From an uncultured bacterium (lineage in GTDB: Bacteria; Vulcanimicrobiota; Xenobia; Xenobiales; Xenobiaceae): DNA of 35,456 nt. Positions within the stretch are counted from its first letter, which is position 1. Each line of letters starts with the position of its first letter. Below the pieces are notes generated by a model. It saw only the letters and a list, made by a program, of their open reading frames with translations. It had not been told where the DNA came from and searched no databases. Of the stretch, positions 1,004 to 24,569 are shown piece by piece. Position numbers and translations under genes: made by a program. Where the stretch lies: the NCBI GenBank assembly GCA_900313515.1, contig OMRK01000197.1:1-35456 (forward strand). The letters are read 5' to 3'.

Positions 1004-1951
1004 CTAGGGCACCTGTACGCTGTTTAAAATATCTCCAATTAGCTTTTCTGCTGCCCAGCTGGCTTCGCGGAAATCCTGATCGGCCAAAATTAAGCGATGC
1101 TCTAAAACAATGGGGGCCAGATCCTTGATATCATCGGGCAGAACATAGTCTCGTTTGTGAAGGACGGCCCAAGCTTGGCTCAGACGGTAAAGAGTCTGCG
1201 AGGCTCGAGGACTGGCACCTAAAGAGATCTGATCGTTGTGGCGGGTAGCATCTACCACGGCCACGATATAGCGGCGTACGTTGGCTTCGAGCCTAACGGT
1301 GCGTATGCACTGGATGGCCTCGGCCAGATCGTTGTTAGAACAGACTGCCTGCAGTTTTTCCAAAGGGTGCTCCAGGCGCTGATCTTCCAGAAGCTGGGCC
1401 TCCGCCTCCAAGGAAGGATAGCCCATGTGCAGTTTGACGGCAAAACGATCTAACTGAGCTTCCGGCAGGGGGAAGGTGCCTTCGTATTCTATGGGGTTTT
1501 GAGTGGCTACCACTATGAAGGGAGTGGGCAGGGTATGAGTATTGCCATTTACTGTAGCCTGGTGCTCTTCCATGCATTCCAGTAGAGCTGACTGCATTTT
1601 AGGGGTAGCTCGGTTAATCTCATCGGCCAAAAGTAAATTGCTGAAGACCGGCCCGGGATGAAACTTAAATTGTTCGCTACTGCGCTCGTAAATGGTAGTT
1701 CCCAGAAGATCGGACGGCAAAAGATCGGGAGTACACTGCACACGTGAAAAGGTGCCGCCGATCGACTTGGCCAGAGCTCTGCACAGAACGGTTTTACCTA
1801 CACCCGGGACGTCTTCAAAAAGAATGTTACCACCAGCCAGAACCGTTGCGGTAGCCTTGAGTATCACATCATCCTTGTCAACAATGACACCTTTTACGTT
1901 GCGGATTATGGCTACACCCAAGTTGTGGGCTTGCTCTAAAGTACACGGCAT
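1004..1951 (-). CDS. MoxR-family AAA+ ATPase (copy 1)
   Basis: A 315-residue AAA+ ATPase of the MoxR family. The Walker A loop is PGVGKT at residues 49-54 and Walker B is LLLADEINR at 106-114. The MoxR signatures TPDLLPSDLLG, FHPGPVF, ATQNP and LPEAQLDRF are all present. MoxR proteins are chaperone-like ATPases that typically work with VWA or DUF58 proteins on maturation of enzyme complexes or the envelope. This copy has no DUF58 gene beside it; it follows a phosphoesterase gene whose 3' end it overlaps by 16 bases, and it is followed after four bases by the HAD gene. An AGGAG lies 12 bases before the ATG, inside the phosphoesterase gene. It differs clearly from the second MoxR at 5505-6518, so the duplication is not recent. 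Confidence 0.93.
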   Translation of the reverse strand: MPCTLEQAHNLGVAIIRNVKGVIVDKDDVILKATATVLAGGNILFEDVPGVGKTVLCRALAKSIGGTFSRVQCTPDLLPSDLLGTTIYERSSEQFKFHPGPVFSNLLLADEINRATPKMQSALLECMEEHQATVNGNTHTLPTPFIVVATQNPIEYEGTFPLPEAQLDRFAVKLHMGYPSLEAEAQLLEDQRLEHPLEKLQAVCSNNDLAEAIQCIRTVRLEANVRRYIVAVVDATRHNDQISLGASPRASQTLYRLSQAWAVLHKRDYVLPDDIKDLAPIVLEHRLILADQDFREASWAAEKLIGDILNSVQVP

Positions 1952-3057
1952 TCTACTTCTGAACTCCTAAGAACAAGTGAGCGCAACGGAGCCTGAATGC
2001 TGTTCTCATTGGGTGTGTAAGTTTCCACGAATGCCTTTGAACCGGGAGAACCATGGACATCGATGTTGATAACTCTATCGTCATAGGCCTTAACATGATC
2101 TGTGTCTCGGGAAAGGGGAGTATGGCCTATAACACAGCTATTGCAGCCAAATCCGTCAAGCATGTCGGTCATTTCCGAATCGGTAAACTGACGGGTGCGA
2201 GTTCCTGACTGGTAATCGTAGCCCCAGACCTTGCGCCCCCAGATAAAGCTTTCTCTAGCTTGTAAATAGGAGCTCTCTGGAAGCTCAGCCAGATTCTGCA
2301 TGGGAATCCAGAACTCTCTACTGTCGGGCACAGAGTGGGAGAAGAGGCGACCATTGACCACAACACCAAGATAAAGGTTATCTTCCAAAAACTGCGAGGC
2401 GCCGGCATGCATGATCTCGGCCCACTTATCTAAGCCTCCGAAGCCTTCGGCCGTGCCTTCGCCACCCTGACACCACCAGTTTACAAAACCCAGCGATTCC
2501 TCGATTTGGTCATCATTCAAACCTTTATTGGAGAGCTGGAGGCGGAGTATGGGCCAATTTTTTGTGGTGAGCAACGTATTCTGAATGAAACTGGGCGTAA
2601 GATAATTGATAACCTTGGCCGACTCCATCATCATAAGGTCATGGTTGCCCAAGATGGGATAAAAACGACTGTCAAAGTCGTATTTAAAGTGGCGCAAGCG
2701 CTCCATATCCTGCTTAATGCTGACAATAAGTTCAATAATGTGGCGAGGACCCTCCAAGGCCTCGTAGGGGGACTGCTCTGTGGAAGACTCTAAGGGCTCA
2801 CCGCGCCAGTCCACATAATCGCCGATAAAGATTAAATCGACACGATCCGCCGCAGGATTCCATTTGGTAGTGCCGGGCAACAAGAAATTTAATTCGCGCA
2901 GATATCGCAGCAAGCGGAAATAATCACCGTGCAGGTCACCTACGGCTAAAATTGTACGCTCCCTATCGTCTATAGGGGGGCGCCCATTGTCATCTTTTAC
3001 GCTCTGATCGTTGAGATTATCGGCGTTGTTCAGTAAATTGGCTTTTATAGAATCCAT
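1936..3057 (-). CDS. Calcineurin-like metallophosphoesterase
   Basis: A 373-residue phosphoesterase of the PPP/calcineurin type, cytoplasmic (no signal peptide). The metal-binding blocks are visible in order: GDLHGD at residues 40-45, GDYVDWRG at 79-86, GNHDLMM at 137-143 and VIGHTPLS near 320. GDLHG / GDYVDRG-like / GNHD is the arrangement of Ser/Thr phosphatases and bis(5'-nucleosyl)-tetraphosphatases. Here Trp stands where most have Arg in GDYVDRG. The substrate may be a phosphoprotein or a nucleotide and cannot be decided. The reading frame is open to a further ATG at 3183, but I chose the ATG at 3057 because GGAG lies eight bases upstream and conserved sequence begins soon after it. The gene sits between the secreted TPR gene and MoxR copy 1. 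Confidence 0.85.
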   Translation of the reverse strand: MDSIKANLLNNADNLNDQSVKDDNGRPPIDDRERTILAVGDLHGDYFRLLRYLRELNFLLPGTTKWNPAADRVDLIFIGDYVDWRGEPLESSTEQSPYEALEGPRHIIELIVSIKQDMERLRHFKYDFDSRFYPILGNHDLMMMESAKVINYLTPSFIQNTLLTTKNWPILRLQLSNKGLNDDQIEESLGFVNWWCQGGEGTAEGFGGLDKWAEIMHAGASQFLEDNLYLGVVVNGRLFSHSVPDSREFWIPMQNLAELPESSYLQARESFIWGRKVWGYDYQSGTRTRQFTDSEMTDMLDGFGCNSCVIGHTPLSRDTDHVKAYDDRVINIDVHGSPGSKAFVETYTPNENSIQAPLRSLVLRSSEVECRVL

Positions 3058-3329
3058 ATGGCTATCTCCGGCGGATTTAAGTAGGTAGCCGCACGTAGAA
3101 AAAGTGACTGGCCCCCAACTGGAGCTAACCGAGTTCTCTTTAACAAAGGTCCATTCCTTCACCTGCAGGTACTGGGCTGACATCTGTCTTTCTGCCCTGC
3201 CGGAATTGTGCGGGCTGTTAGGTCGTAGGGGGGCTCCCGGAGCGACTGGAATTTATAGCATTAATGCCTGGGAGCATCGGGGGGTGCACAACGTCTGTGG
3301 GGATTACCCGAAGATGCGGGAGTATCCCA
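3058..3329. other. Intergenic spacer between TPR gene and phosphoesterase
   Basis: A stretch of 272 bases without a convincing gene. On the minus strand a TGC-TATAAA sequence (complement of 3252-3260) resembles an extended -10 box, but no -35 box sits at the right distance. The phosphoesterase frame stays open to 3183; the extra N-terminal residues it would add carry no recognisable feature. Confidence 0.4.
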
Positions 3330-5381
3330 TCAGTAACCGTAGGCAGACTCGTCTCTAAGCAGGAATTCTTTTAAGTTCTCCTGGTTGGCTGAACTCGAGG
3401 CTGAACTACCGTCTAAGGAATCAAGATCGAAGGAAGAAAGATCGATCTTGGCGGCAAAAACCTGTTCATGAATTTCTTTGGCTAACGCGGCGGCAGTGTC
3501 GTAATTACTCTTGGTCAGCTTAACCTTGGCTCTGGACAAAACACGACCATCCGGCCCTAAAAGGCTGGCGCAGTAGGAATCAGTCTGTAGGTAGAACTGC
3601 AGAGTCAAGCCCTGGTTTGTTACCTTAAAGCGTGGAGATTTGGCAATCATACCCGACAAGATGTTTCCTGACTGGGAGCCATCGCTTTGGCAAACAACGG
3701 GAACTCTGCCTTCGGTGTGGCGAATAGCCGCAGGAGTTGAGGTTATAAGCTGGGCATATTTTTGGGCGGCCTCCCTATAATTACCTTGGCTGTAATCTAT
3801 TTGGGCCAGTCTGGCCAACGACCAAGCCCGTACTAGCTTGACCGCTTTGGGTAAGGTCACCAAAGTTTTCTCAAAATTCTTCTTGGCCGTATCTTTGTTG
3901 CCGAATAGGTAAGCAATTTCTGCTTTATGGAGCAGCAGATAGGGTTCTTCCACCGGCAGATTCTTGTCTTGCTGACGCAGAATTCTGTTTATAGCATCGT
4001 TGCAGACGCCTGGCCCGAGTATCTTATTTAAAAATGGCTTGTAACATTCTGGAGCGGTTATGCCCTGAGACCGGTAAGGTCTCAAACTGGAAGCTATGCG
4101 GCCATTTTCTGTCATTAAAGCCCGCAGGCGTGAGGAAGAACGCCAAAGCTCGTAATCCATGCGAAGGATATCCCAACGCAACTCCAAGCTCTTACTGAAG
4201 GGAGTCCAACTGAGCATCTCGCGGTAATACTCGCGCAGAGCCTTGACTGCCGCGTACCAGGTGAGCAGGTTGCCGGCCTCGGCCTGATCCACATCCACCG
4301 ATGAACCACCCTGGCGATCTGGCCTATTGACCAATTTGCTCAGCCGAAATGTTGCTTCTCCTATCCAACCTAACTCCAAAAAGAGGCAGCCGCTAGTTTG
4401 CAGATTGTCGGCCATAAACTGTTGGTACAGGAAGGGCTTGAGGGCGCGGGAGTATTGGTAGGTTTTGACCAGAGCCTGAGAAGCTTCGGCAAACTTAGCC
4501 TCAGAGATGTAAAGATCGGTAAGATCACCATAGGGGTTTGTGTATGACTGATCGCTAAAGGGGGCGTTGCTAGCCTCGTTAAAGAGCTGTTCGGCCTCGT
4601 CGAAGCGGCCCAGAGCCAGACAGGTCTCGCCAAGGTTTCTCAAAACGGTAGGATCGGGTGCCTCTCCTCGGCGGCGTCTTTCGCTTATCAGGTTAGAGAA
4701 GGCGTTGTAGGCCGCCTGTTCGTTGCCGCACTCCGACTCTAGAGCTCCCAGAGAGTTCCAGGCTATCTCAACTGCCGCATTATTCCCCGAGTTGAAGGCA
4801 CGCGTCAAAACTTTGCGAGCCTCATCTTCTCGATTCAGTTTCATGAGCGGCCAGGCTTTCTCCACTTCAAGGTAGGAAAGGCCAGGTATATGTTTTGTAA
4901 GACAATCTATGGCTTTGATTTTCTCTTTATATCTGTCCATTTCCCCCAAAACCTGGATAAGCTCCACCTGAGAGGCTATGAACAAAGAATATTTGTTGCT
5001 ATAGGTACTTCTACCCTTGATATCTTCGATGATGTAGTCGCGGGCTTTCTCCAGATGGTAACGTGAACGTGGCAGATCTCCCTCGGCTCGGTGGAAGACT
5101 ACGCCTAAAACGGCGTGACCTTCTACAGAATGGGGATCTTGAGCAATCTTGGCCTCGGCGAACTTGCGCCAGGAGATCATGTTGTCTGTGTCGTTAGTTA
5201 TAGCAAACAGAGCAGGGCCGTCTATAGGCCTCTTGCTCAGGGTTTCGTAGGTGTTACTCTTGGGTGAAGGTTTGCTTAGGGCCGGTTCGCTTAAAAAGGG
5301 CAGAAGCAGGGCCGCAAGAAGAATAACAGCCAACAGAGTTCTAAAACTAAAAGTAGCGTTAGAATACCTATTATCTTTCAT
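3330..5381 (-). CDS. Secreted TPR-repeat protein
   Basis: A 683-residue exported protein. The N terminus has a basic stretch, a hydrophobic core (about residues 14-32) and an ALS-KP cleavage-like site, so it is probably periplasmic. The body consists of helical tetratricopeptide-type repeats, for example VEGHAVLGVVFHRAEGDL, AWNSLGALESECGNEQAA and LRNLGETCLALGRFDEAE. A further TPR group lies near residues 500-570 (AEIAYLFGNKDTAKKNFEK, LARLAQIDYSQGNYREAA). The last 100 residues are not repeats and contain two cysteines. TPR proteins act as protein-protein scaffolds. Between two MoxR genes, it could be the exported partner of the MoxR/DUF58/transglutaminase machinery; that is inference. The second ATG (5381) is chosen over the one at 5387 because AGAGG lies nine bases before it but only three before the other. 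Confidence 0.85.
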   Translation of the reverse strand: MKDNRYSNATFSFRTLLAVILLAALLLPFLSEPALSKPSPKSNTYETLSKRPIDGPALFAITNDTDNMISWRKFAEAKIAQDPHSVEGHAVLGVVFHRAEGDLPRSRYHLEKARDYIIEDIKGRSTYSNKYSLFIASQVELIQVLGEMDRYKEKIKAIDCLTKHIPGLSYLEVEKAWPLMKLNREDEARKVLTRAFNSGNNAAVEIAWNSLGALESECGNEQAAYNAFSNLISERRRRGEAPDPTVLRNLGETCLALGRFDEAEQLFNEASNAPFSDQSYTNPYGDLTDLYISEAKFAEASQALVKTYQYSRALKPFLYQQFMADNLQTSGCLFLELGWIGEATFRLSKLVNRPDRQGGSSVDVDQAEAGNLLTWYAAVKALREYYREMLSWTPFSKSLELRWDILRMDYELWRSSSRLRALMTENGRIASSLRPYRSQGITAPECYKPFLNKILGPGVCNDAINRILRQQDKNLPVEEPYLLLHKAEIAYLFGNKDTAKKNFEKTLVTLPKAVKLVRAWSLARLAQIDYSQGNYREAAQKYAQLITSTPAAIRHTEGRVPVVCQSDGSQSGNILSGMIAKSPRFKVTNQGLTLQFYLQTDSYCASLLGPDGRVLSRAKVKLTKSNYDTAAALAKEIHEQVFAAKIDLSSFDLDSLDGSSASSSANQENLKEFLLRDESAYGY

Positions 5382-5504
5382 GAACATTAACCTCTGCGCA
5401 GGTTTGGGCCCTGCAGCCCTCAGCCGACTCTAAGAAGCGATCAGTTTGACTATTACTATACTTAAAGTTAGAGAGTTTGAGAAGTTCGCCGTTTAATTTA
5501 TAAA

Positions 5505-6518
5505 CTAGCGTTTTCTGAGAGTAGAGCGGCACAGATCTTCTAAAGGCTTTTTGCAGCACTCGCGGATGACCTTAATGGGGTCTTCCATGCCGGCGGTAAG
5601 CTCTAAGCGGTGGGCAAATACGTAGGGCACCAAGTAGGAAACATCATCTGCTGTGACATAATCGCGGGCCCGTTTTAAGGCGCAAGCCTTAAGGGCGGGA
5701 ATCATGAGTACTAAGCTTCGGGTTGAGATACCCTGGGCCACGTAAGGAGATTGACGCAGAGCATTGGCCATATCTACCAAGCACTGGTTGATGCGATCGT
5801 CTACATAAATGAAGTTGTCCACCGACTGGCGGGCCTCTAAGATGGCCGACTTGGGAACCATGGGAAAGTCGTTGCCCGGAGGAGTACAGCGTTCGTGGAT
5901 TGAACGCAGCACATCCAGTTCTGAATCGCGGTCGATGTTGTTCATGCGGATCTTAAAGAGGAAGCGGTCATGTTGAGCCACTGGTAAGGGATAGGTACCG
6001 GCTTGATCGCGAGGGTTCTGAGTGGCAATTACAAAGAAGAGCCGGCCCAGAGCATGCGAGGTGTTGTCCACTGTAACTTGCTTCTCTGCCATAGCCTCCA
6101 GCATGGCCGATTGCACCTTGGGGGAGGTACGGTTAATTTCGTCGGCTAAAACGACATGGGCGAAGAGAGGGCCCGGCCGGAACGTGAAAGATCCGCTGTC
6201 AGGCTCAAAAATGGTCATGCCGGTAATGTCTGAAGGCAACAGGTCAGGTGTAAATTGAATCCTGCGGAACATGGTGATGGGAGGCTCTGGCTTATCGTTA
6301 TAGATAGACTCACCCAGGGCTTTAGCCAAAGTGGTTTTGCCCGATCCAGGAAAATCTTCCAAAAGTACGTGCCCATCGGCCAGAATGGCAACCAAAATCA
6401 GTTCGATCACCTGATCACGTCCACGAACTGCCCTTTTCAGGCGGGATTCGAGGGTGAGCAGCAGATTATAGGCTTTATCCAAGAGCACCGCTCGGTTGGC
6501 TTGTGAGGTTCTATCCAA
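5505..6518 (-). CDS. MoxR-family AAA+ ATPase (copy 2)
   Basis: A 337-residue MoxR-type AAA+ ATPase. Walker A is FPGSGKTT (residues 56-63) and Walker B is VVLADEINR (122-130). MoxR blocks TPDLLPSDITG, FRPGPLFAHV and ATQNP follow, then the C-terminal lid helices (residues 235-320). The order DUF58, transglutaminase, MoxR on the same strand is the classic MoxR partnership, so this copy is the likelier partner of the DUF58 protein. The start codon is TTG (complement of 6516-6518), preceded by AGGGAGG eleven bases upstream; no ATG lies near. A structured spacer of 322 bases separates it from the transglutaminase gene, and 123 bases separate it from the TPR gene that follows. Confidence 0.93.
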   Translation of the reverse strand: MDRTSQANRAVLLDKAYNLLLTLESRLKRAVRGRDQVIELILVAILADGHVLLEDFPGSGKTTLAKALGESIYNDKPEPPITMFRRIQFTPDLLPSDITGMTIFEPDSGSFTFRPGPLFAHVVLADEINRTSPKVQSAMLEAMAEKQVTVDNTSHALGRLFFVIATQNPRDQAGTYPLPVAQHDRFLFKIRMNNIDRDSELDVLRSIHERCTPPGNDFPMVPKSAILEARQSVDNFIYVDDRINQCLVDMANALRQSPYVAQGISTRSLVLMIPALKACALKRARDYVTADDVSYLVPYVFAHRLELTAGMEDPIKVIRECCKKPLEDLCRSTLRKR

Positions 6519-6840
6519 GGTAAATTAGGCCTCCCTATTTTTTAATTTAAAATAATTTTTATCGATTGACATCGGTTTTCTATCGGGTGTACTTTGCTGG
6601 TTCGCTCTGCACCTTTCGGTTACTTCGCCTTAGTTTTAATTGGCTTTGTGAGCTTCCAGACACTAGAAGTCTTTCGGGCACCAGGCCTTCTGCTCCGGTG
6701 GGTAGTCCTCCCGCCTTAAGGGCTAGACTGGCGGAGAGCTACCTCGTCGTTGTCGGGAGCTGGCAGGCGGTGGCTCTTATGGCTTTGATAAACGGCCATC
6801 ACCCGCCTGTCGCGCCCGACTGTCCGGAAAGTGAGCATGA
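6519..6840 (-). other. Structured intergenic spacer with two hairpins
   Basis: A stretch of 322 bases between the transglutaminase stop and the TTG start of MoxR copy 2. No gene is convincing in it. Two imperfect inverted repeats stand side by side. One pairs 6702-6715 with 6730-6742; the other pairs 6752-6774 with about 6794-6820 around a short loop. Neither is followed by a T-run on the minus strand, so they are not ordinary intrinsic terminators. An AT-rich block at 6535-6560 lies just upstream of the MoxR ribosome-binding site and could hold its promoter. The spacer may be a structured leader, an attenuator or a small RNA gene. Confidence 0.45.
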
Positions 6841-9198
6841 CTAGTGTACAAAAATCCAAGCAAAAGGATTCAATATCCCTAACCACCGGCGCCACCAAGG
6901 CGCCAGGCCCTGCATTTGCGATTTTAGATCACGGTACAGACTGCTAACGGTCGAACTTTCAGGCAATGGCAGGTAGGACTGGAAGTCTTTCGTTGCGCCG
7001 AAACTGCGGCGCAAGTGTCCAGCGGTCAGCTCCTCCAGGCTAGGCAACTGCTCTTTCCACCTTAGAGCAAATTCTTCTCTGGTTTCGCCGTAACGTCGAC
7101 GGATCCCCAGCTCTGCCAGTGATACCAGAGCAGCCTTGTAAGTGTAATCTACCTTGCTGGCTTGTAAACAGAAATAGACGCGCGTGTGCAGGTAAATCTT
7201 GTAGATCCAGGCGTAGATAAAGGCGGCAATCAGGACCAAAACCAAACCGTACCCGAGCATTTTTACCAATACCTGCAGTTGCTTTTGTACATCAACTGGC
7301 TTCTGGGGCACGCCATCCTCATTGGACGATTCCTCACGGGCCATTTCACCCAGCATCTTCTGCAAGTCGGGATCGGGGGGATCCTGCTGCGGGCTTCTAG
7401 AGCGCTCGGCATAGACATCTATGGGGAACCAGCCCAGACCATCCAAATAGATTTCACACCATGAATGGGCGTAGGAACCCATAATGAGTAGCGAAGAACC
7501 GCCGTAGGTATTCTTTTCCTCCACGGCATAACCTTCGGCAACTCTGGTGGGAATTCCCAATGAACGTCCTAAATAAGCCATAGCGCTGGAAAAATGGACG
7601 CAGTAGCCAATGCGGTCACCAAAAAGGAATTTGGCAGTTACATCCTCCTTATCTTTAACCCTCACGCTGGCATCGTAAATACAATTCTTACTGAGCCAAA
7701 GCTGAATCATAAAAATCTTGGCTATAGAAGAATCCTTATACTGGGCCGGCAGCTCTTTTACTATTTTATCGGCTAGTTCTTTGTAACGTGGATCTTTGGG
7801 AATTTGGGTATAGTATTCTATATCGGCCTTAGACCAGTTGGGATTACCTACATGCAATTTCATAAGATCGGGGAGTTTTCCAGTAAAGCTTCTCGATTTT
7901 ACGTTGTAGGCTCCTATGAATTGGCCCGAGTTAGGATTGGGAGCCGTCGACATTTCATATGGATTGACCAAGCCGAATGGTTTGTTGTGATCGGTGATAA
8001 GGCACACTTTTGTTCCCACTGATTTAGTTATACTTGGGTTGAAGCGTGGCGCGGTAATAACGTTTGAACCGTTAGGCTGAGGGAAGCCAGAAGCCACGTC
8101 GTGATCGTAGCGGCCAGACACATCCTGCAGAAGTTTCTTTCCGTTGAAGAAGCTTTTGACTTCCTGGCGGAAATAGTAATTGCCACCGTAAGGTTTGCAG
8201 TCGTCGTTTAAAAGTACCACAGCCACAGGCTGATCCGGCGGCGGATCGTTAATGTTCCTGTCGTTGTCCTCATTGTTATCGCTCTTTTCACCCTTTTCAC
8301 TGTTGTCTTTGTCACTGTCGCTTCCGGAACCGCTCTCACCCTCTTTGTCCTGATTTTTGTCGTTCTTATCCTGATTTTTATCATCCTTATCTTGAGAGTT
8401 ATCACCCTTGTCATTTTTATCTTTCGGTTTTTGATTGTTGCCCTTTTTACCCTTGGATTTCTCCTGATCTTCGCCCTTGGCTTCACCACCTATAATTTGC
8501 TTGGGTAAAGGGTTACGCAGCTCTTTAAGGGGCAGAAATATGCCAACTAAGGTTATAATTACCACTAAGATCGATAAATTGACAATACTTCTGCGGTTGA
8601 GTTTGCCTACTATCAAAAAGACTAGGGCTATGGCCAAGAGCATACCCACACCCACGAAGTAGGGTACGGGATCACGACCTTCTGACCAGAGAGGATCTAC
8701 AAAGAAATAGGGACGGCTGATAAAACCATTGCGGTGTGCGGCCAGGGGAAATAAGGCAATATTGGCGACTATGATAAGTTCAAAGGCTACAAACCAAGAT
8801 TTGCGCAAGCTTATGGCATGAATTGTGCCTACCAGCAATAGACAGTTGAAGAACCAAACAAGACCCTGGGAAATGGCACTGGCATCCTCGGGTGAGGAGA
8901 AGAGCGAAGCGATAAAAGCGCTATTTACCGGAAGATTGGCCATCCAGATCAAGAGCCGATTGAGCAGGATAGAGCCTACCACAAAGACGGGAATGCGCAG
9001 GCGCGAGTGAGCTAAACAGTATGATAAAAACAGGGCCCCGAGAACCGCTCCCAAAAAGGCTCCAAACACCCCACTAGTGACGGAAAGTAATGAAGCATTG
9101 ACGCCCAAAACTAAGCCCCAAATTAGACCGTTGATTAAGGAAGCACATCCAAAAGATTTTTTATTCTCAAAATTATGGTTCATAATTTCAACAGCCAT
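6841..9198 (-). CDS. Membrane transglutaminase-like protease, TgpA type
   Basis: A 785-residue membrane protein with a papain-like transglutaminase core. The first 235 residues hold about seven hydrophobic segments. Residues 240-315 are a low-complexity linker of Lys, Asp, Asn, Gln and Ser. The transglutaminase domain follows, with Cys533 in GYCVHFSSAMAYLGRSLGIP, His578 in YAHSWCEIYL and Asp594 in GWFPIDVY, so the catalytic triad is intact. A further membrane helix lies around residues 650-670, then a cytoplasmic tail resembling DUF4129. This is the usual layout of TgpA/DUF3488 proteins paired with DUF58 and MoxR. The linker would be outside the membrane. The gene begins three bases after the DUF58 stop, so the two are co-transcribed. 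The start could be residue 1 or Met6; neither has a strong ribosome-binding site. Confidence 0.9.
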   Translation of the reverse strand: MAVEIMNHNFENKKSFGCASLINGLIWGLVLGVNASLLSVTSGVFGAFLGAVLGALFLSYCLAHSRLRIPVFVVGSILLNRLLIWMANLPVNSAFIASLFSSPEDASAISQGLVWFFNCLLLVGTIHAISLRKSWFVAFELIIVANIALFPLAAHRNGFISRPYFFVDPLWSEGRDPVPYFVGVGMLLAIALVFLIVGKLNRRSIVNLSILVVIITLVGIFLPLKELRNPLPKQIIGGEAKGEDQEKSKGKKGNNQKPKDKNDKGDNSQDKDDKNQDKNDKNQDKEGESGSGSDSDKDNSEKGEKSDNNEDNDRNINDPPPDQPVAVVLLNDDCKPYGGNYYFRQEVKSFFNGKKLLQDVSGRYDHDVASGFPQPNGSNVITAPRFNPSITKSVGTKVCLITDHNKPFGLVNPYEMSTAPNPNSGQFIGAYNVKSRSFTGKLPDLMKLHVGNPNWSKADIEYYTQIPKDPRYKELADKIVKELPAQYKDSSIAKIFMIQLWLSKNCIYDASVRVKDKEDVTAKFLFGDRIGYCVHFSSAMAYLGRSLGIPTRVAEGYAVEEKNTYGGSSLLIMGSYAHSWCEIYLDGLGWFPIDVYAERSRSPQQDPPDPDLQKMLGEMAREESSNEDGVPQKPVDVQKQLQVLVKMLGYGLVLVLIAAFIYAWIYKIYLHTRVYFCLQASKVDYTYKAALVSLAELGIRRRYGETREEFALRWKEQLPSLEELTAGHLRRSFGATKDFQSYLPLPESSTVSSLYRDLKSQMQGLAPWWRRWLGILNPFAWIFVH

Positions 9199-9201
9199 CT
9201 C

Positions 9202-10704
9202 TTACACCGCCTGTTTTTGTGATTGGAAATAGGCCGCTGGATTGTTGATGATCCTGCCGCTGGCTTTCTCACAGAGAACAACAGGAGTTGTCGAGGTGTA
9301 CAACTCCTTAGATACGCGCGCTGGCTCCTCCGCCTCATGAGCGACTGAATCGCTGAAAATCCAACGTTCCCAAGGCTTCTCCGCCTCTATCTTTTCAATA
9401 TTGTGGCTAAATCCCATGAGCCAAGTTATAGTCAAATGAGTAGAACTTGTGGCTGTCTTAACAAATTTTATCCAATTCCCGTATACTGGAGGTACGAACA
9501 CAAAGCAACTGTGATAGCCTTTTTTGGCAGCTGTGTTTAAAAAGGCGCTCAGCCCACTGCCCAAAGGAATATTCAAGCTGTCATCTGCCCCTTTTTCTGC
9601 ACCGTCGGCTGGGAGTGTGGTCGAGGCGCGGTTTAAGGCATGGGAATAACTGCCGGACCGAGCCAGAAACTCCACAGCTTCGGTCAGGTTGGAAGTGGAA
9701 CCCGGGCAACCATCAGCTCCAAACAGCCAATTTTCACCCAAGAGTTTCGATTCCAAAATAGTGCGGGCAAATGAAGCAGTAGCTTCATCTTCTCTGCCAA
9801 CCACTAGATAAGCGCAGGTGCGTGGTTTAGCCGTCAAAGCACGCTCGGGCATGCGAACCTCCAGGCGGCGGGTGCGGGCGTAAACCTTCCAGATGATGGA
9901 GCGGGAAGGATCGCCGGGAGCATATTGGCGCATATCGGTGCGATCACCTTGAGGATCGCCGAAGGGATCGGAAATATCCTCGCCGCCGGACATGCTCATA
10001 GTTACGTTACTGCGCTGCATCTTGCCGCTTTCAGGATAGGCCTTGATTCCGACATTCTGCCAACTGACCCAAGTTACGTTGGCTAGACCCAGCACGTCGG
10101 TGACCGAGAAGCGGCGGGCCAATTTTTCCACGCTACAGCGGTGGCGAGCGGTGATGCGTTCTTTGAGCTCAGTGAAGCTTTGTTCGCACTCTACCTCAAA
10201 ACCAGGCGGATCTATCCACTTAATGCTTATATTGACAAGTGGGATGGGCCACAGCTTAATGACCAAACCGCTCTTGCATGAAGGGGCATTGCAACAGGTA
10301 GTTATGTCGGGCAGGCCTTCTTCTTTGGCTTTTTTCCAGCCGTAGGCTAGACTGATGGCTTCCAGGCTTACGGCCACTATCATCAGGACTCCCACCACAG
10401 CCAGAGCTACTGAGGCCGATGTCCAGACTATATCATTATATTTCAAGGCTACGTTTTTGAAGGTGATGTATAACAATATCATGTAAGCCAACCCTAACAG
10501 GGTAAGCGGAACATAACCCCAGGCCTTGATGACCCAGGCACCCGCCTTTCTGAGGGCGACTTTCATTCTATTAGCCATAAGTGAGCCGTTTTGGCTGGCA
10601 ACATCCGGTCCCAGGGCTCGAGGCAATATATTTTCTTCTTGGCTAGGCATAGGCTTCACTGTATTCAATACTAATTTTACTTTTGAATCTCTCACCACAT
10701 ACAC
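9202..10704 (-). CDS. DUF58-domain membrane protein
   Basis: A 500-residue protein with two N-terminal membrane helices (about residues 64-82 and 96-118), then a DUF58 domain. The family signature is clear around residues 250-290: DMRQYAPGDPSRSIIWKVYAR followed by LEVRMPE, matching the R-x-Y-x-x-G-D...I-x-W...A-R consensus. DUF58 proteins have a von-Willebrand-like fold and work with MoxR ATPases and transglutaminases in the cell envelope; their exact action is not established. The gene heads the minus-strand train, with the transglutaminase gene three bases downstream. The longest frame opens with GTG at 10704 without a good ribosome-binding site; the ATG at residue 18 is a possible alternative start. 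The 153 bases to the divergent kinase must hold its promoter. Confidence 0.88.
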   Translation of the reverse strand: MYVVRDSKVKLVLNTVKPMPSQEENILPRALGPDVASQNGSLMANRMKVALRKAGAWVIKAWGYVPLTLLGLAYMILLYITFKNVALKYNDIVWTSASVALAVVGVLMIVAVSLEAISLAYGWKKAKEEGLPDITTCCNAPSCKSGLVIKLWPIPLVNISIKWIDPPGFEVECEQSFTELKERITARHRCSVEKLARRFSVTDVLGLANVTWVSWQNVGIKAYPESGKMQRSNVTMSMSGGEDISDPFGDPQGDRTDMRQYAPGDPSRSIIWKVYARTRRLEVRMPERALTAKPRTCAYLVVGREDEATASFARTILESKLLGENWLFGADGCPGSTSNLTEAVEFLARSGSYSHALNRASTTLPADGAEKGADDSLNIPLGSGLSAFLNTAAKKGYHSCFVFVPPVYGNWIKFVKTATSSTHLTITWLMGFSHNIEKIEAEKPWERWIFSDSVAHEAEEPARVSKELYTSTTPVVLCEKASGRIINNPAAYFQSQKQAV

Positions 10705-19298: not shown

Positions 19299-19579
19299 TT
19301 ATAGTTGATGTGATTCCTCCCGAAATTCGAGTGGAGCGTGAAAAATTTCGACTAGTCTTTGGCGGTTTGGGGTGCGCTTTAGAAAGCTCATTATTGGACG
19401 GAGCCGGGGCTAGGTCTTGAGTTTAGGTCTCACTATCTAGGAACGGCAAGTTAGGCAGGAAATTGCTTGAATGCTGGTTAAGAGACGTGGGTGTGGGGGA
19501 GGCAGCGGGTGAAAGGCTGCTTTGTGCGCGTCACAGAATTCGGTGAGTTGCCGTAGAGTGATTTTTAGGAGGATTGGCT
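19299..19579 (+). other. Intergenic region without a gene
   Basis: These 281 bases carry no coding signal. CGAAATT (about 19322) and AATTTCG (about 19345) form a weak inverted repeat, without a T-run after it. The ribosome-binding site TTAGGAGG of the next gene lies at the right end. Confidence 0.4.
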
Positions 19580-19834
19580 ATGGCGGTACAGGTCGTTAAA
19601 GAAAAGGTTCCCGTGATTGTCTTGACTACTTCCTATCGCCTGGAGGGCGATATGCATGTGGTTCCAGGCGGGAGGCTGATTGATGAGATTAACCGCGAGC
19701 GTGGTTTTATTCCGCTTACTAACGCGACTCTCTTCGACCCTGTGAGCGGGCAGCCTGTGGACACTTTAGATTTTATTGCCGTCAATAAGGCATTGGTGTT
19801 AATGGTTGCTCCCGTTGAGACGCCAGCTTCCTAA
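19580..19834 (+). CDS. Small conserved protein, DUF6812-like
   Basis: An 84-residue protein: a strand VPVIVLTTSYRLEGDMHVV, then PGGRLIDEINRERGFIPLTNATLF, and an ending FIAVNKALVLMVAP (the second block is cited by its parts PGGRLIDEINRE and GFIPLTNATLF). The pattern, Y-R-[ILV]-x-G-x-[VM]-H-x-x-P-G-G-R-L...F-I-P-L-x-x-A and a final V-N-[KR], resembles the small beta-rich DUF6812 family. Function is unknown in the family as far as I recall. The ATG follows AGGAGG by seven bases; a TTG at 19574 is rejected for lying next to that site. It precedes the MBL hydrolase by 61 bases and may be co-transcribed with it. Confidence 0.6.
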   Translation: MAVQVVKEKVPVIVLTTSYRLEGDMHVVPGGRLIDEINRERGFIPLTNATLFDPVSGQPVDTLDFIAVNKALVLMVAPVETPAS

Positions 19835-20704: not shown

Positions 20705-21487
20705 GTGAAGCCGTACTTGACCTTTACAATTACTTTACTTTTATTGCTTGCCTTGTTCCTATGTCCTTGGGCTGTTGGGTCTTGCGCTTTTGGAGATGTT
20801 TGCATCGGGGGGGTGGGTTGTTCGTCCGGCGAGTCTGAACGCCACTTGGGGGAAAAGATGACGGCAGAGGGCAGTCGTGCGGTTGGGGCTCCAGAAAAAG
20901 AGTGCGTGCTTTGCGGAACCTTTTACGATTACCGTAACGGAGAGTTGTTGCTGGGCCGATTCAATTTGCATTTGGCTTCTGGTGCCCTTGTTTACTGCGA
21001 AGGGCGCTTAATTTCGGCCGACAAAATGAATGGCTTAGCCAGAAAATGGTTGGCCTGCGCTCACCTCAATGGTAAGGGAGAGGTGAGCAAGTTGCATCTG
21101 CGGGCCGATCGCTTTGAGCACCGAACAACTCAGAAAGCTGCGTATCTGCATTTTGGCCCTCAAGGAGAGGGTCTGCCTGGGCAGCCTATCTTTGTACAGT
21201 ACTACTTTCCGGAGGGCTGTAAAGTCAAGCCTGGCAGTGAGCGAAGATATTTACCTGACGCAGAGGGTTGGGATGATCTTCGTTTATTTGTGGATGGTAA
21301 AAAAGTTGAAAGCGGACAGGTTAAGCAGGAGGGGCTTTTGTACTACTTGCCCGCAGAGCCTTTGTCGCCGGGCTTTCACCGTTTCAGGGTTGGCACGAGT
21401 ACGGGAAATGCGGGAACTATTCTCATCGAGCAAGAGGCTAGATGGACTGACGATGTTCCAGTTGCGGACGGTGAAGCGGAAAAATGA
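20705..21487 (+). CDS. Secreted protein with an Ig-like domain, first gene of an unknown operon
   Basis: A 260-residue exported protein: signal peptide (PYLTFTITLLLLLALFLCPW, cleavage near residue 25-30), then a cysteine-containing spacer (CSS, CVLC). The middle (about 75-150) is beta-rich: YRNGELLLGRFNLHLASG, LRADRFEH. The C-terminal part looks like an immunoglobulin-type fold: PIFVQYYFPEGCKV, DLRLFVDGKKV, YYLPAEPLSPGFHRFRVG. The last has the Y-x-P-x-x-x-L-x-x-G-x-H pattern common in extracellular Ig domains. Family unknown. GTG start, with a weak AGG upstream. Its end overlaps the next gene by four bases (ATGA), so translation is likely coupled. Confidence 0.7.
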   Translation: MKPYLTFTITLLLLLALFLCPWAVGSCAFGDVCIGGVGCSSGESERHLGEKMTAEGSRAVGAPEKECVLCGTFYDYRNGELLLGRFNLHLASGALVYCEGRLISADKMNGLARKWLACAHLNGKGEVSKLHLRADRFEHRTTQKAAYLHFGPQGEGLPGQPIFVQYYFPEGCKVKPGSERRYLPDAEGWDDLRLFVDGKKVESGQVKQEGLLYYLPAEPLSPGFHRFRVGTSTGNAGTILIEQEARWTDDVPVADGEAEK

Positions 21488-22350
21488 TGGATCCGGAACT
21501 TAAGCGTCAGCGTTACTTTGTTGAGTCTCTCAACTGGAAGGCTCTGGAGTGTCGGCCGGCCCTTTTTCGTTATGTGCAGGAACCTGTTTTTAGCCTTAGT
21601 CTGGCTGAAGAGTTTCTGATAGAATTCCTCTACAAGCACGGCTTAGAATTTGAGTTGCAGCCGCGCTACAACCCTGCCAAGCTGATTACACTGAATGTTA
21701 CTATAAAGGGGACAACCCAGCGGGTGCGCTTGGATCTGTCCTACGGCTTTTCTTGTTCATGCACTTTTGCTACACTGCGTACAGCCTTCGCTAGCGATTT
21801 CAAGGGATGGCTGGATCGTACTTTGGGGGTAGAACGCTTTGATCGCACGCAGTATATAGGCACTCGCCATTGGGTGTCTTATTCCTATGCTCTGCCTCTT
21901 TACGAAACAGTGGCGGCTGGTTCGGGAACACCCGGTGCGGCCTCGGTTAGGGATTCGCGTCATGTATCCTACCTGTTCAATTTCAACAGCAAGGAGCAGG
22001 AGTTTCTGCGTGTTTTAGAGGAGGTGACGACCGCCAACGATGATTTTGATAACCCTCTGTATGTGCGTGTTTATCCGCGGCTAAGCCATACCGGCAGCAT
22101 TGAGCTGGTCATTAACAACCGTGAGGGCGGGCAGCCGGTACGGGTCTTCTCTTCGGGAAGTCATCCTGTTATCTATCAGGTTATTACCGAAAACACTGAG
22201 TTGACTATTCCCCTGAAGAACTACTTGGATAATGCGCTGGGCATTGAGGCCTTAGACTTGGATAACTGCAGGCTTGGGGGCAGGATGATCTCCCTCATTT
22301 ACACTCACCGCTCTCCAAATAGCATTGAGGCTCTTTTTGACGATGATTAA
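21484..22350 (+). CDS. Unknown protein, middle gene of the operon
   Basis: A 288-residue protein without signal peptide or membrane segment. The N terminus is helical (PELKRQRYFVESLNWKALE), followed by many beta strands, e.g. LITLNVTIKGTTQRVRLDLS, LYVRVYPRL, GSIELVINN and PVIYQVITENTELTIPL. It ends with acidic residues (EALFDDD). No known family, catalytic motif or metal site was recognised. Its ATG overlaps the stop of the preceding secreted Ig-like protein, and the following gene starts eight bases before its stop. The three genes therefore form a tight operon in which a cytoplasmic protein stands between two exported ones. Confidence 0.7.
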   Translation: MMDPELKRQRYFVESLNWKALECRPALFRYVQEPVFSLSLAEEFLIEFLYKHGLEFELQPRYNPAKLITLNVTIKGTTQRVRLDLSYGFSCSCTFATLRTAFASDFKGWLDRTLGVERFDRTQYIGTRHWVSYSYALPLYETVAAGSGTPGAASVRDSRHVSYLFNFNSKEQEFLRVLEEVTTANDDFDNPLYVRVYPRLSHTGSIELVINNREGGQPVRVFSSGSHPVIYQVITENTELTIPLKNYLDNALGIEALDLDNCRLGGRMISLIYTHRSPNSIEALFDDD

Positions 22351-23551
22351 GAAACTTGACCTTGTCTTGTTGCTAGCATTAATGGGCTGTCTTTTAGCAT
22401 TGGCAGATGTGGTAAAGTCAGAGCCCAAGGCTGATGGACAGTTTGAGTTTGTCCGACCGAAAAAAAATGAAGCTAGCAGCAACGAGACACAGCAGGCTAA
22501 TCTCTTAGAACGAGCGGATGAACCTGTTCGGTTAAACCTGGAGGAGTCGACTGCTTCCATCATTTACCCCTTGCTGGAGGCCCAGCTTTTGGCCTTCTCC
22601 GATCATCCGGAGAAGGTGGACAGGCGCGGCTTACTTTTCAGAGGTGGGTTGATTCCCTTTAAGCCGGTGCGTTTTCAATATTATCACCAGGGTGGTCGGG
22701 TTGATAACGATTTGTGGTTGCGCCTGGAGTTGAAGAACCTTGGCACAAAGAAGGCGGTGGTACAATTAATTGAGGGCAGGGGTGGTCCCGATTCCGATTA
22801 TTTTCAAGCTGGCCATGTTAACAATCTGCAGTTCTTGAGTCGCGTGGCCCATGGTGAGAGCAGAAATTTAATGCTGGAGCCGGGCGAAAGTTTGACTCTG
22901 TTTTGCCAAAACATGCCTTACGATGAGGTTTTAAGCGGCAGCGCTCAGTTCACTCTCTACGAAGGTTCGAATGTGGGCTTTTCGCTGCTCTCTTTACAAG
23001 ATCCCGAAGAATCGCCCAGTTTTAACTTGCTGACCAAAGCCAGCGATGTCCATGCTCGCGGTATTTACGCTTGCACCGATCAATTTGTAAATCGAATATT
23101 CAACCTGCCCGAGGACAAGGATGTGCAGGTGGCCATTGGAGCAGTTCGTCAACCTAACGTTTACCAGGAGCCGGAGCTTAAGGGAGACTACGGTGTGATC
23201 TATGCCATGCGCTTTTTGGTAAACAACAATTCCGAAGAAGATAAAACCGTGCACGTTATTGCCAATCCACGTGGAGGCAAGGCCACTGTAACGGCTCTGT
23301 TGCAAACAGAGGTACTGGAGGAAAGCCCTCCGCCCTTTACCTGGTTAAACGCTCAGGTACCCGCCTTGGAGAGTTTTCGTAATGGTGGTGCTTGGCAAGA
23401 CTGCTCCCTCCACCGCGAGAGCGAAGCCTTTCAAGAAAATGTGATAGGCCAATTCTGCGCTCCCGCACAAAAAAGCACCTTAGTACGGTTGCTGACCATC
23501 CCCGAAGGTGCTTCTAACTATCCTGTACGCTTTATTCTGAGAGCAAAGTAG
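22343..23551 (+). CDS. Unknown exported beta-rich protein, last gene of the operon
   Basis: A 402-residue protein with an N-terminal hydrophobic segment (KKLDLVLLLALMGCLLALAD) that may be a signal peptide or anchor. A lipobox-like LMGC lies inside it, but hydrophobic residues continue after the Cys, so a lipoprotein is less likely. A polar stretch (residues 30-65) leads to a long beta-rich region, with strands such as DNDLWLRLELKNLGTKKAVVQLIEG (parts: LWLRLELKNLG, AVVQLIEG), ESLTLFCQN and YGVIYAMRFLVNN. Two consecutive beta-sandwich domains are plausible (about 95-205 and 270-400). No family recognised. The ATG at 22343 is preferred over the earlier TTG at 22325; GAGG lies 12 bases upstream. 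Convergent with rdgB, 51 bases away. Confidence 0.7.
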   Translation: MIKKLDLVLLLALMGCLLALADVVKSEPKADGQFEFVRPKKNEASSNETQQANLLERADEPVRLNLEESTASIIYPLLEAQLLAFSDHPEKVDRRGLLFRGGLIPFKPVRFQYYHQGGRVDNDLWLRLELKNLGTKKAVVQLIEGRGGPDSDYFQAGHVNNLQFLSRVAHGESRNLMLEPGESLTLFCQNMPYDEVLSGSAQFTLYEGSNVGFSLLSLQDPEESPSFNLLTKASDVHARGIYACTDQFVNRIFNLPEDKDVQVAIGAVRQPNVYQEPELKGDYGVIYAMRFLVNNNSEEDKTVHVIANPRGGKATVTALLQTEVLEESPPPFTWLNAQVPALESFRNGGAWQDCSLHRESEAFQENVIGQFCAPAQKSTLVRLLTIPEGASNYPVRFILRAK

Positions 23552-23602: not shown

Positions 23603-24253
23603 CTAATTCTTCAAGAGATCCGCTAGCTGTTGTACAACTGCCCGTACTGCTTTGCCGCGGTGGCTTATGCTATTTTTCTCAGCCGCATCCAGCTCGGCCA
23701 TGCAACACCCTCGGTCGTCAGTCAAAAATATGGGATCGTACCCGAATCCGGCCTTCCCGCAGGCTTTAAAAGCAATGGAACCCTCACATGTCGCTACTGC
23801 GCTGAGGTAATCTAACTCCACGCCGGGCCGTTTGAGCGCGAGCAAGGAAAGTCCATAAATCACCGCCGTGCAACGGAATCTGGCTCGACGTTCTTCGGAA
23901 GGCTTGTCCTTGAGTATTTCTAAAACTCTGGCATTCTTTTCCGCCTGACTGTGGCAGTCTGCTAAAAAACGGTGAGAGTAGAGACCAGGGGCTCCCTGCA
24001 GAGCTTCGATCTCCAGACCAGAATCATCGGCTAGACAGGGCAGAGCTAGGGTATTACCGTAATGCTTGGCCTTTATAAGAGCGTTCTCTAAATAGTTCTT
24101 TCCGGTTTCCGGCGGCTCAAGAATCTCGCGCCCTTGAGCCGCTTCCGTCAGGCTGACTAACTCAAGATCTACTGGCGCGTCTGCCAGAATAGCCCGCATT
24201 TCCTCCGCCTTGTGAGGGTTGCCAGTTGCCAGTAGAAGTTTAATTTTGGGCAT
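23603..24253 (-). CDS. rdgB: XTP/dITP diphosphatase (non-canonical purine NTP pyrophosphatase)
   Basis: A 216-residue HAM1/RdgB-family enzyme that hydrolyses XTP, ITP and dITP to the monophosphate and pyrophosphate, keeping deaminated purines out of nucleic acids. Signatures are LLATGNPHKAEEMRAIL at the N terminus and LADDSGLEIEALQGAPGLYSHRF, here in the parts LADDSGLEI and GAPGLYSHRF. GFGYDPIF and the final SHRGKAVRA complete the pattern. All active-site parts are present and the length is typical (190-220). Its start overlaps the end of the upstream coiled-coil gene by 14 bases, so they are translationally coupled. Confidence 0.95.
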   Translation of the reverse strand: MPKIKLLLATGNPHKAEEMRAILADAPVDLELVSLTEAAQGREILEPPETGKNYLENALIKAKHYGNTLALPCLADDSGLEIEALQGAPGLYSHRFLADCHSQAEKNARVLEILKDKPSEERRARFRCTAVIYGLSLLALKRPGVELDYLSAVATCEGSIAFKACGKAGFGYDPIFLTDDRGCCMAELDAAEKNSISHRGKAVRAVVQQLADLLKN

Positions 24254-24569
24254 TGGAGCCTGCTGCTTTTATTCTATTGATCTCGGCCCACTTTTCATCG
24301 ATCTCCCACTGCTTAAGCTGTACAGCCTGGCAGGTGGCACGCAGATCGGGATCGGATATCTGGCCCTGCACATAGCGTTCGTATATTTTCAAGGCAATAC
24401 CGTTGAGAAGTTTATCTTTTTCGTCTCGCAGGGACTTTACCTCGCCCTTAAGCCGTTCCACTTTCAAATGGAGCTCTGCCGACCCCATAAGTTCGTCGCG
24501 CTTTTTAGCGGCTGCATTGACTAAGCCTTTGGCCATGCCGCCGACCGCATCTAAAACACCACCAGCCAT
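24240..24569 (-). CDS. Small coiled-coil protein coupled to rdgB
   Basis: A 109-residue soluble protein. A glycine/alanine-rich start (AGGVLDAVGGMAKGLVNAAA) could be an amphipathic, membrane-touching helix. Residues 22-60 have heptad-like charge and hydrophobic spacing (KKRDELMGSAELHLKVERLK, then EVKSLRDEKDKLLNGIALK), so a coiled coil is likely. The rest is helical too. No family recognised. AGGAGG seven bases before the ATG makes the start firm. The 14-base overlap with rdgB suggests that the two are made together. A candidate promoter lies at 24717-24746. Confidence 0.75.
   Translation of the reverse strand: MAGGVLDAVGGMAKGLVNAAAKKRDELMGSAELHLKVERLKGEVKSLRDEKDKLLNGIALKIYERYVQGQISDPDLRATCQAVQLKQWEIDEKWAEINRIKAAGSNAQN

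Follow-up and report, generated by a model that had tools for sequence, protein, structure and literature searches.

Two described systems are close, in gene context, to the protein family that is traced here from one gene of an overlapping trio. One is the Raetz-pathway lipid A cluster, with the order lpxD-lpxC-fabZ-lpxA-lpxB. The other is YfiB-YfiN-YfiR, in which a periplasmic protein controls a membrane diguanylate cyclase (PMC2837407, PMC3375315). Genomes of the phylum Eremiobacterota/Vulcanimicrobiota are reported to encode BamA and the synthesis of lipopolysaccharide, on which ground the phylum is described as diderm (PMC6664022). Vulcanimicrobium alpinus is a cultivated member of this phylum (PMC9758169). 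The DNA analyzed here, hereafter called the window, is a stretch of 35,456 nucleotides from an uncultured bacterium of rumen type that makes up an entire contig of a 2.35 Mb metagenome-assembled genome (MAG) in 282 contigs, and it belongs to class UBP9 of Eremiobacterota/WPS-2. Loci related to the window are found in UBP9 (UBA6111 and UBA1432), in the goat-rumen MAGs RGIG3641 and RGIG3565, in bacterium CPR1, and in others. The window contains a trio of overlapping genes (genes 1–3). We give a probability of roughly 0.55 to the reading that gene 2 was inverted in place to form a new operon, that genes 1 and 3 encode envelope proteins, and that the gene 3 family serves the outer envelope.

The first-pass annotation had described three genes overlapping by four and eight bases, and the coordinates and the sequence confirm them (Table 1). 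The mechanically defined ORF of gene 3 opens upstream at an in-frame TTG (22325), which is an alternative possible start. A hydropathy scan detected N-terminal hydrophobic segments in gene 1 (residues 11–29) and gene 3 (residues 6–24) and found none in gene 2. These results, together with the beta-sandwich model of gene 3 described below, agree with the earlier view that the first and last genes look exported and beta-rich while the middle one looks cytoplasmic. Profile searches of the window proteins gave no match above cut-off for genes 1–3 in Pfam, NCBIfam, PHROGs, or PADLOC, so the absence of a described family also stands. The trio proteins had no match in PADLOC-DB at E ≤ 1, and a PDB sequence search with the profiles of genes 1, 2, and 3 gave only chance-level matches. 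A defence island was rejected on the basis of the lack of PADLOC matches and the housekeeping neighbours.

Table 1. Coordinates of the three genes, their overlaps and flanking markers in the window, and of related loci in other genomes
Feature	Position	Strand	Description	Basis
Gene 1	20705..21487	+	GTG start, 260 aa; predicted exported	ORF list
Gene 2	21484..22350	+	ATG start, 288 aa; predicted cytoplasmic, tandem-domain	ORF list
Gene 3	22343..23551	+	ATG start, 402 aa; predicted exported, tandem beta-sandwich	ORF list
Gene 1 stop/gene 2 start overlap	21484..21487	+	ATGA; left junction of the putative inverted segment	Sequence
Gene 2 stop/gene 3 start overlap	22343..22350	+	ATGATTAA; right junction of the putative inverted segment	Sequence
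Metallo-beta-lactamase-fold (MBL) hydrolase, PF13483	19896..20573	+	Upstream syntenic marker	Pfam E 2.6e-45
Ham1/ITPase family (HAM1), PF01725	23603..24253	-	Downstream syntenic marker	Pfam E 2.8e-54
Short gene 3 homolog with cyclase	L124:1813-5488; L127:2903-5928; L128:1844-5846; L032:5644-9150; L014:9590-13306			
Long form with lpxD/lpxC	L033, L034, L035, L037, L038, L100, L104-L107, L131		Lineages f1, f2, f3, f4, f5, f7, f8, f11, f13, f14	

Short conserved ORFs of 86 and 109 aa, neither with a family name, lie at 19574-19834 and 24240-24569 of the window, and their positions in the block are kept in relatives. Elsewhere in the window, on the minus strand at 1004-10704, two MoxR-type AAA ATPases, a transglutaminase-core protein, a weak DUF58 protein, and a TPR protein are clustered. 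Such a grouping of genes is typical of MoxR-DUF58 clusters.

The N-terminal region of gene 1 is undescribed and carries a conserved G-x(3)-D-x-R-x-G-E motif in the alignment. By eye, this region may resemble an OB-type domain. At the C-terminus, gene 1 and its orthologs have a domain akin to the bacterial Ig-like modules BiPBP_C and Big_13. The window protein matches BiPBP_C with an E value of 0.2 (12 bits versus a cut-off of 26.8), and the ortholog in genome G002 matches Big_13 with an E value of 0.00067 (20.5 bits versus a cut-off of 27). However, every such match lies below the curated cut-off. The Ig-like domain that had been assigned to one of the two exported proteins is therefore weakly suggested for the C-terminus of gene 1.

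Gene 2 consists of two tandem copies of one alpha/beta domain of ~110 aa, and the two halves align with each other with an hhalign probability of 97.7 (E 2e-12). In the AlphaFold2 model (pLDDT 75), each half starts with one helix, continues with four strands and a second helix, and closes with one more strand. A fold search with this model against the PDB and viral predictions gave no match at E ≤ 0.001; resemblances to SH2 domains, microcompartment-shell proteins, and a de novo design were rejected as chance matches with low TM-scores. The comparison with DR_1245 (PDB 4h5b), the fold of which we take to be YbjN/type III secretion chaperone-like, should be noted. Each half of gene 2 is similar to this fold in size and in its helix-strands-helix make-up. 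However, there is no sequence match to gene 2 and the Foldseek score is low (E 0.57, probability 0.25), so that the likeness is not established. Gene 2 may be a cytoplasmic tandem-domain protein that acts perhaps as a chaperone-like or regulatory factor. Single-domain paralogs of gene 2 (~138 aa) occur in genus g3 and genome G009 (L053-L056 around 1489-1908; L066:1018-1560), and in L053 and L056 the paralog follows a gene named by sequence inspection as a DtxR-type regulator.

AlphaFold2 models gene 3 as a tandem pair of beta-sandwich domains, the core of which is predicted with confidence (pLDDT 83, pTM 0.79). Foldseek returned many kinds of tandem beta-sandwich proteins with E values down to 1.8e-6 and TM-scores of ~0.2. 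The matches to the SIDT1/2 ectodomain, the neuropilin CUB tandem, clostridial haemagglutinin modules, and tandem CBM22 were not taken as signs of homology or function, since the sequence identities are ~6–11% and the TM-scores ~0.2. Judging from the predicted structure, these matches indicate a generic tandem beta-sandwich binding-module architecture. The profile and structure-based searches that the first-pass annotation had recommended for all three genes thus gave no described family, no significant fold for gene 2, and only this generic architecture for gene 3.

Genes for distant gene 3 paralogs of ~600 aa were found in every genome of the class in the initial search, and a 23-sequence profile detected the gene 3 domain in 147 of the 149 phylum genomes, including all of the 85 good-quality ones. 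Gene 3 thus represents an undescribed exported family across the phylum, distantly related to DUF3370 (PF11850), an uncharacterised Pfam family. DUF3370 gives no match with gene 3 of the window, whereas at E ≤ 10 it has matches in 7 of the 12 family members aligned (the best with 3.8e-6), and one long-form member (G015) passes its gathering score (26.5 versus 25 bits). The N-terminal stretch (profile positions 14–53) and a G-[DN]-[YF]-G-V stretch (~303–332) of DUF3370 are shared with the family at matching places. However, the matches cover short stretches, and most family members remain below the cut-off. In a tree of 33 sequences, the forms encoded in the lipid A cluster constitute one clade (support 100/96), and gene 3 falls within a separate clade of short forms (96/85).

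The strand of gene 2 in relatives should be noted, since the four- and eight-base overlaps had been taken as strong evidence for a functional unit. Orthologs of gene 2 occur in seven of the eight genomes of the window's family. Gene 2 lies on the strand opposite to genes 1 and 3 in G004, G003, G006, G005, and G002, and opposite to gene 3 in G007, i.e. in every one of the six relatives whose context can be read (gene 2 identity 62–41%). Because of this orientation, gene 2 is a separate transcription unit in the relatives. The order 1-2-3 is nonetheless kept without insertion in the five relatives in which all three genes are readable, across three further genera. In G007, genes 2 and 3 are adjacent in the same order and gene 1 is cut by the contig end. 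In G001, gene 1 ends one contig, gene 3 begins another, and no gene 2 was found. Gene 2 of G001 probably falls in the assembly gap, and the contig ends are consistent with the same order. The MBL gene upstream of gene 1 and the HAM1 gene beyond gene 3 anchor the block in the relatives, and a GSA-aminotransferase gene is conserved as a neighbour in the same block. Insertions occur on both sides of the trio: upstream, a gene named by sequence inspection as CTP synthase lies between MBL and gene 1 in genera g3 and g4; downstream, transposase-like or cyclase genes are found. In a goat-rumen relative, a PD-(D/E)XK transposase-family gene lies between gene 3 and HAM1 (L009:4278-5177).

The trees of gene 2 (100/99) and MBL (94/93) both place the window with G004, a goat-rumen genome. 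Since gene 2 of G004 is on the opposite strand, the flip in the window is derived, and the parsimonious reading is that this gene was inverted once, in the lineage of the window. The one-strand arrangement is private to this lineage, as seen in one assembly, that of the one genome of the window's genus. The small overlaps are derived as well and hence are not evidence of an ancient unit. They are also ordinary within the window, because 4 of its 24 same-strand neighbour pairs overlap. The weight placed on the overlaps is therefore not borne out.

Conservation of the trio as a unit, which the first-pass annotation had proposed to check, is seen in part. The genes are contiguous and co-occur in the window's family, with full-length orthologs of all three in G000 (the window genome) and G002-G006. 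However, the one-strand layout is absent from the relatives, and full-length copies of all three together are confined to one family. Beyond family f1, gene 2 occurs only in G009, where genes 1 and 3 are not nearby, and the matches to gene 1 are Ig-like C-terminal fragments only. G010 has a short gene 3 and lacks gene 2, and other classes have gene 3 without genes 1 and 2.

The genes next to other members of the short clade point in a different direction. A membrane GAF-GGDEF diguanylate cyclase gene adjoins the short-clade gene in G018, G019, G010, and genus g3, and in G021 one small gene lies between them. The short gene 3 homologs thus lie before the cyclase gene, directly or one gene away, and in G019 the two genes overlap by 4 bases. 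Each of the cyclases has at least five hydrophobic segments. The pairing looks ancestral because early-branching members of the short clade have it. In G026, the place of the cyclase as neighbour is taken by an apolipoprotein N-acyltransferase and an O-antigen-ligase-type protein, both with envelope functions. No full-length ortholog of the cyclase was found in G000, G001, G003, or G004, where the best matches (33–34% identity) cover the GAF-GGDEF part only. The cyclase thus appears to have been lost from these four genomes, judging from the sequences, and without its ortholog the cyclase link cannot be the role of gene 3 in the window genome.

The long form (~600 aa) is encoded between an LpxD-like acyltransferase and LpxC at 11 loci in ten family-level lineages. 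FabZ, an oxidoreductase, LpxA, and LpxB usually follow the long form and LpxC, and OmpH-like genes often precede. Marker genes of lipid A synthesis were sought around the long forms and were not found at five loci of families f10, f12, and f15, nor near a further paralog in G002. In the window genome, lpxD adjoins the long form (L029, G000:C198) and lpxC is on a different contig (G000:C60:12442-13239); the genes are adjacent in relatives. Several long forms match the secretin-type pilus-formation N-domain (PF13629) above cut-off at their N-terminus. The deeper associations of gene 3, namely the lipid A cluster for its sister clade and the cyclase for its own clade, are therefore not with genes 1 or 2.

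These observations bear on the alternatives to the in-place inversion reading. The trio could be a true functional unit in which a cytoplasmic protein, e.g. a dedicated secretion chaperone or assembly factor, partners the two exported beta-domain proteins, and for which togetherness is required and strand is free. This is the unit that the uninterrupted order in the five relatives, with genes coming and going on either side, would be expected to reflect; the contig ends of G001 fit it, and the overlaps would couple translation in the window lineage. However, the contiguity is not special to the trio, since MBL, HAM1, and the GSA-aminotransferase are conserved in the same block. Gene 2 was ancestrally divergent from gene 3, and the separate occurrences of gene 2 in G009 and of gene 3 in G010 and other classes also argue against it. 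We consider such a unit unlikely. Accordingly, the surface structure with a cytoplasmic partner suggested by the first-pass annotation holds in its envelope reading of genes 1 and 3, which is reasonable, whereas the three-part system is improbable. Most likely, the locus is a syntenic block that encodes envelope proteins and in which any role of gene 2 is conjectural, rather than a dedicated three-part surface structure.

At the other extreme, the genes could be unrelated members of a slowly reshuffling block, conserved in synteny only, with the overlaps arising by compaction in a reduced genome after the inversion. The frequency of overlaps in the window is in line with this, as are the size of its genome, which falls at the smaller end for the family (genus g3 has 3.7–4.7 Mb), and the location of the oldest partners of gene 3 elsewhere. 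Two precise small overlaps after an inversion, however, are explained somewhat better by selection for co-expression than by chance, and the products of genes 1 and 3 seem to reside in the same compartment of the cell; we regard mere synteny as a poor bet too. The same-strand arrangement might even be an artefact produced by flipping a short gene 2 segment during metagenome assembly, given that the genus is represented by one fragmented MAG. This is highly improbable, since the junctions keep three intact frames with exact ATGA and ATGATTAA overlaps, whereas a random flip is expected to break frames or leave gaps. Inverted repeats flanking gene 2, by which it could have been flipped through recombination, were sought and not found, which likewise tells against the artefact. 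Against the in-place inversion reading itself stands the order 1-2-3, kept across four genera despite insertions on both sides, which leaves room for a functional link.

In the inversion reading, which we prefer, gene 2 would have been turned around, in the window lineage, at its place between genes 1 and 3. Long-standing neighbours in at least two opposite transcription units would thereby have become one operon, co-directional as observed, presumably co-transcribed and probably co-translated. Genes 1 and 3 would encode exported envelope proteins composed of beta-sandwich/Ig-like binding modules, located in the periplasm or outer membrane. Gene 3 most likely acts in the periplasm or at the outer membrane, where its two beta-sandwich domains may bind an envelope ligand such as a glycan, LPS, or a protein. 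The family as a whole would serve the outer envelope, with one clade in a cluster for lipid A and outer-membrane biogenesis, and with gene 3's own clade having ancestrally worked next to a GAF-GGDEF cyclase that spans the membrane several times. The ancestral gene 3 may have informed or accompanied surface behaviour controlled by c-di-GMP. With the cyclase gone in the window lineage, gene 3 may now serve the envelope as a structural or binding protein, either by itself or together with gene 1. As a more tentative extension, one form of the family could be an unrecognised component of lipid A or outer-membrane biogenesis (lpxD-lpxC) while the other would report the envelope state to a membrane diguanylate cyclase and, in the window lineage, have been re-wired so as to share a new operon with a cytoplasmic partner.

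Taken as an operon, the trio is ordinary, and its moderate interest lies in the protein family to which it leads. It also shows that very small overlaps between genes can arise within a single lineage and that, by themselves, they are weak evidence for an ancient functional unit. Following gene 3, on the other hand, exposes an uncharacterised exported family with one branch inside the lipid A gene cluster. Should the building or checking of the outer membrane depend on this branch, it would supply a part of envelope biogenesis that has been missing for this little-studied diderm phylum. The outer-membrane role is testable in Vulcanimicrobium alpinus if the long gene is present there.

The two systems introduced at the outset resemble the family of gene 3 in different ways. 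As for YfiB-YfiN-YfiR, gene 3 has no family match, the cyclases here are multi-segment proteins with a GAF domain, and the window has no cyclase gene; nevertheless, in relatives the gene of a short-clade exported protein stands beside that of a membrane diguanylate cyclase, which makes the likeness a functional analogy only. As for the Raetz-pathway lipid A cluster, gene 3 itself is outside the cluster, whereas its long paralog has its gene inside; this long form is no known Lpx enzyme.
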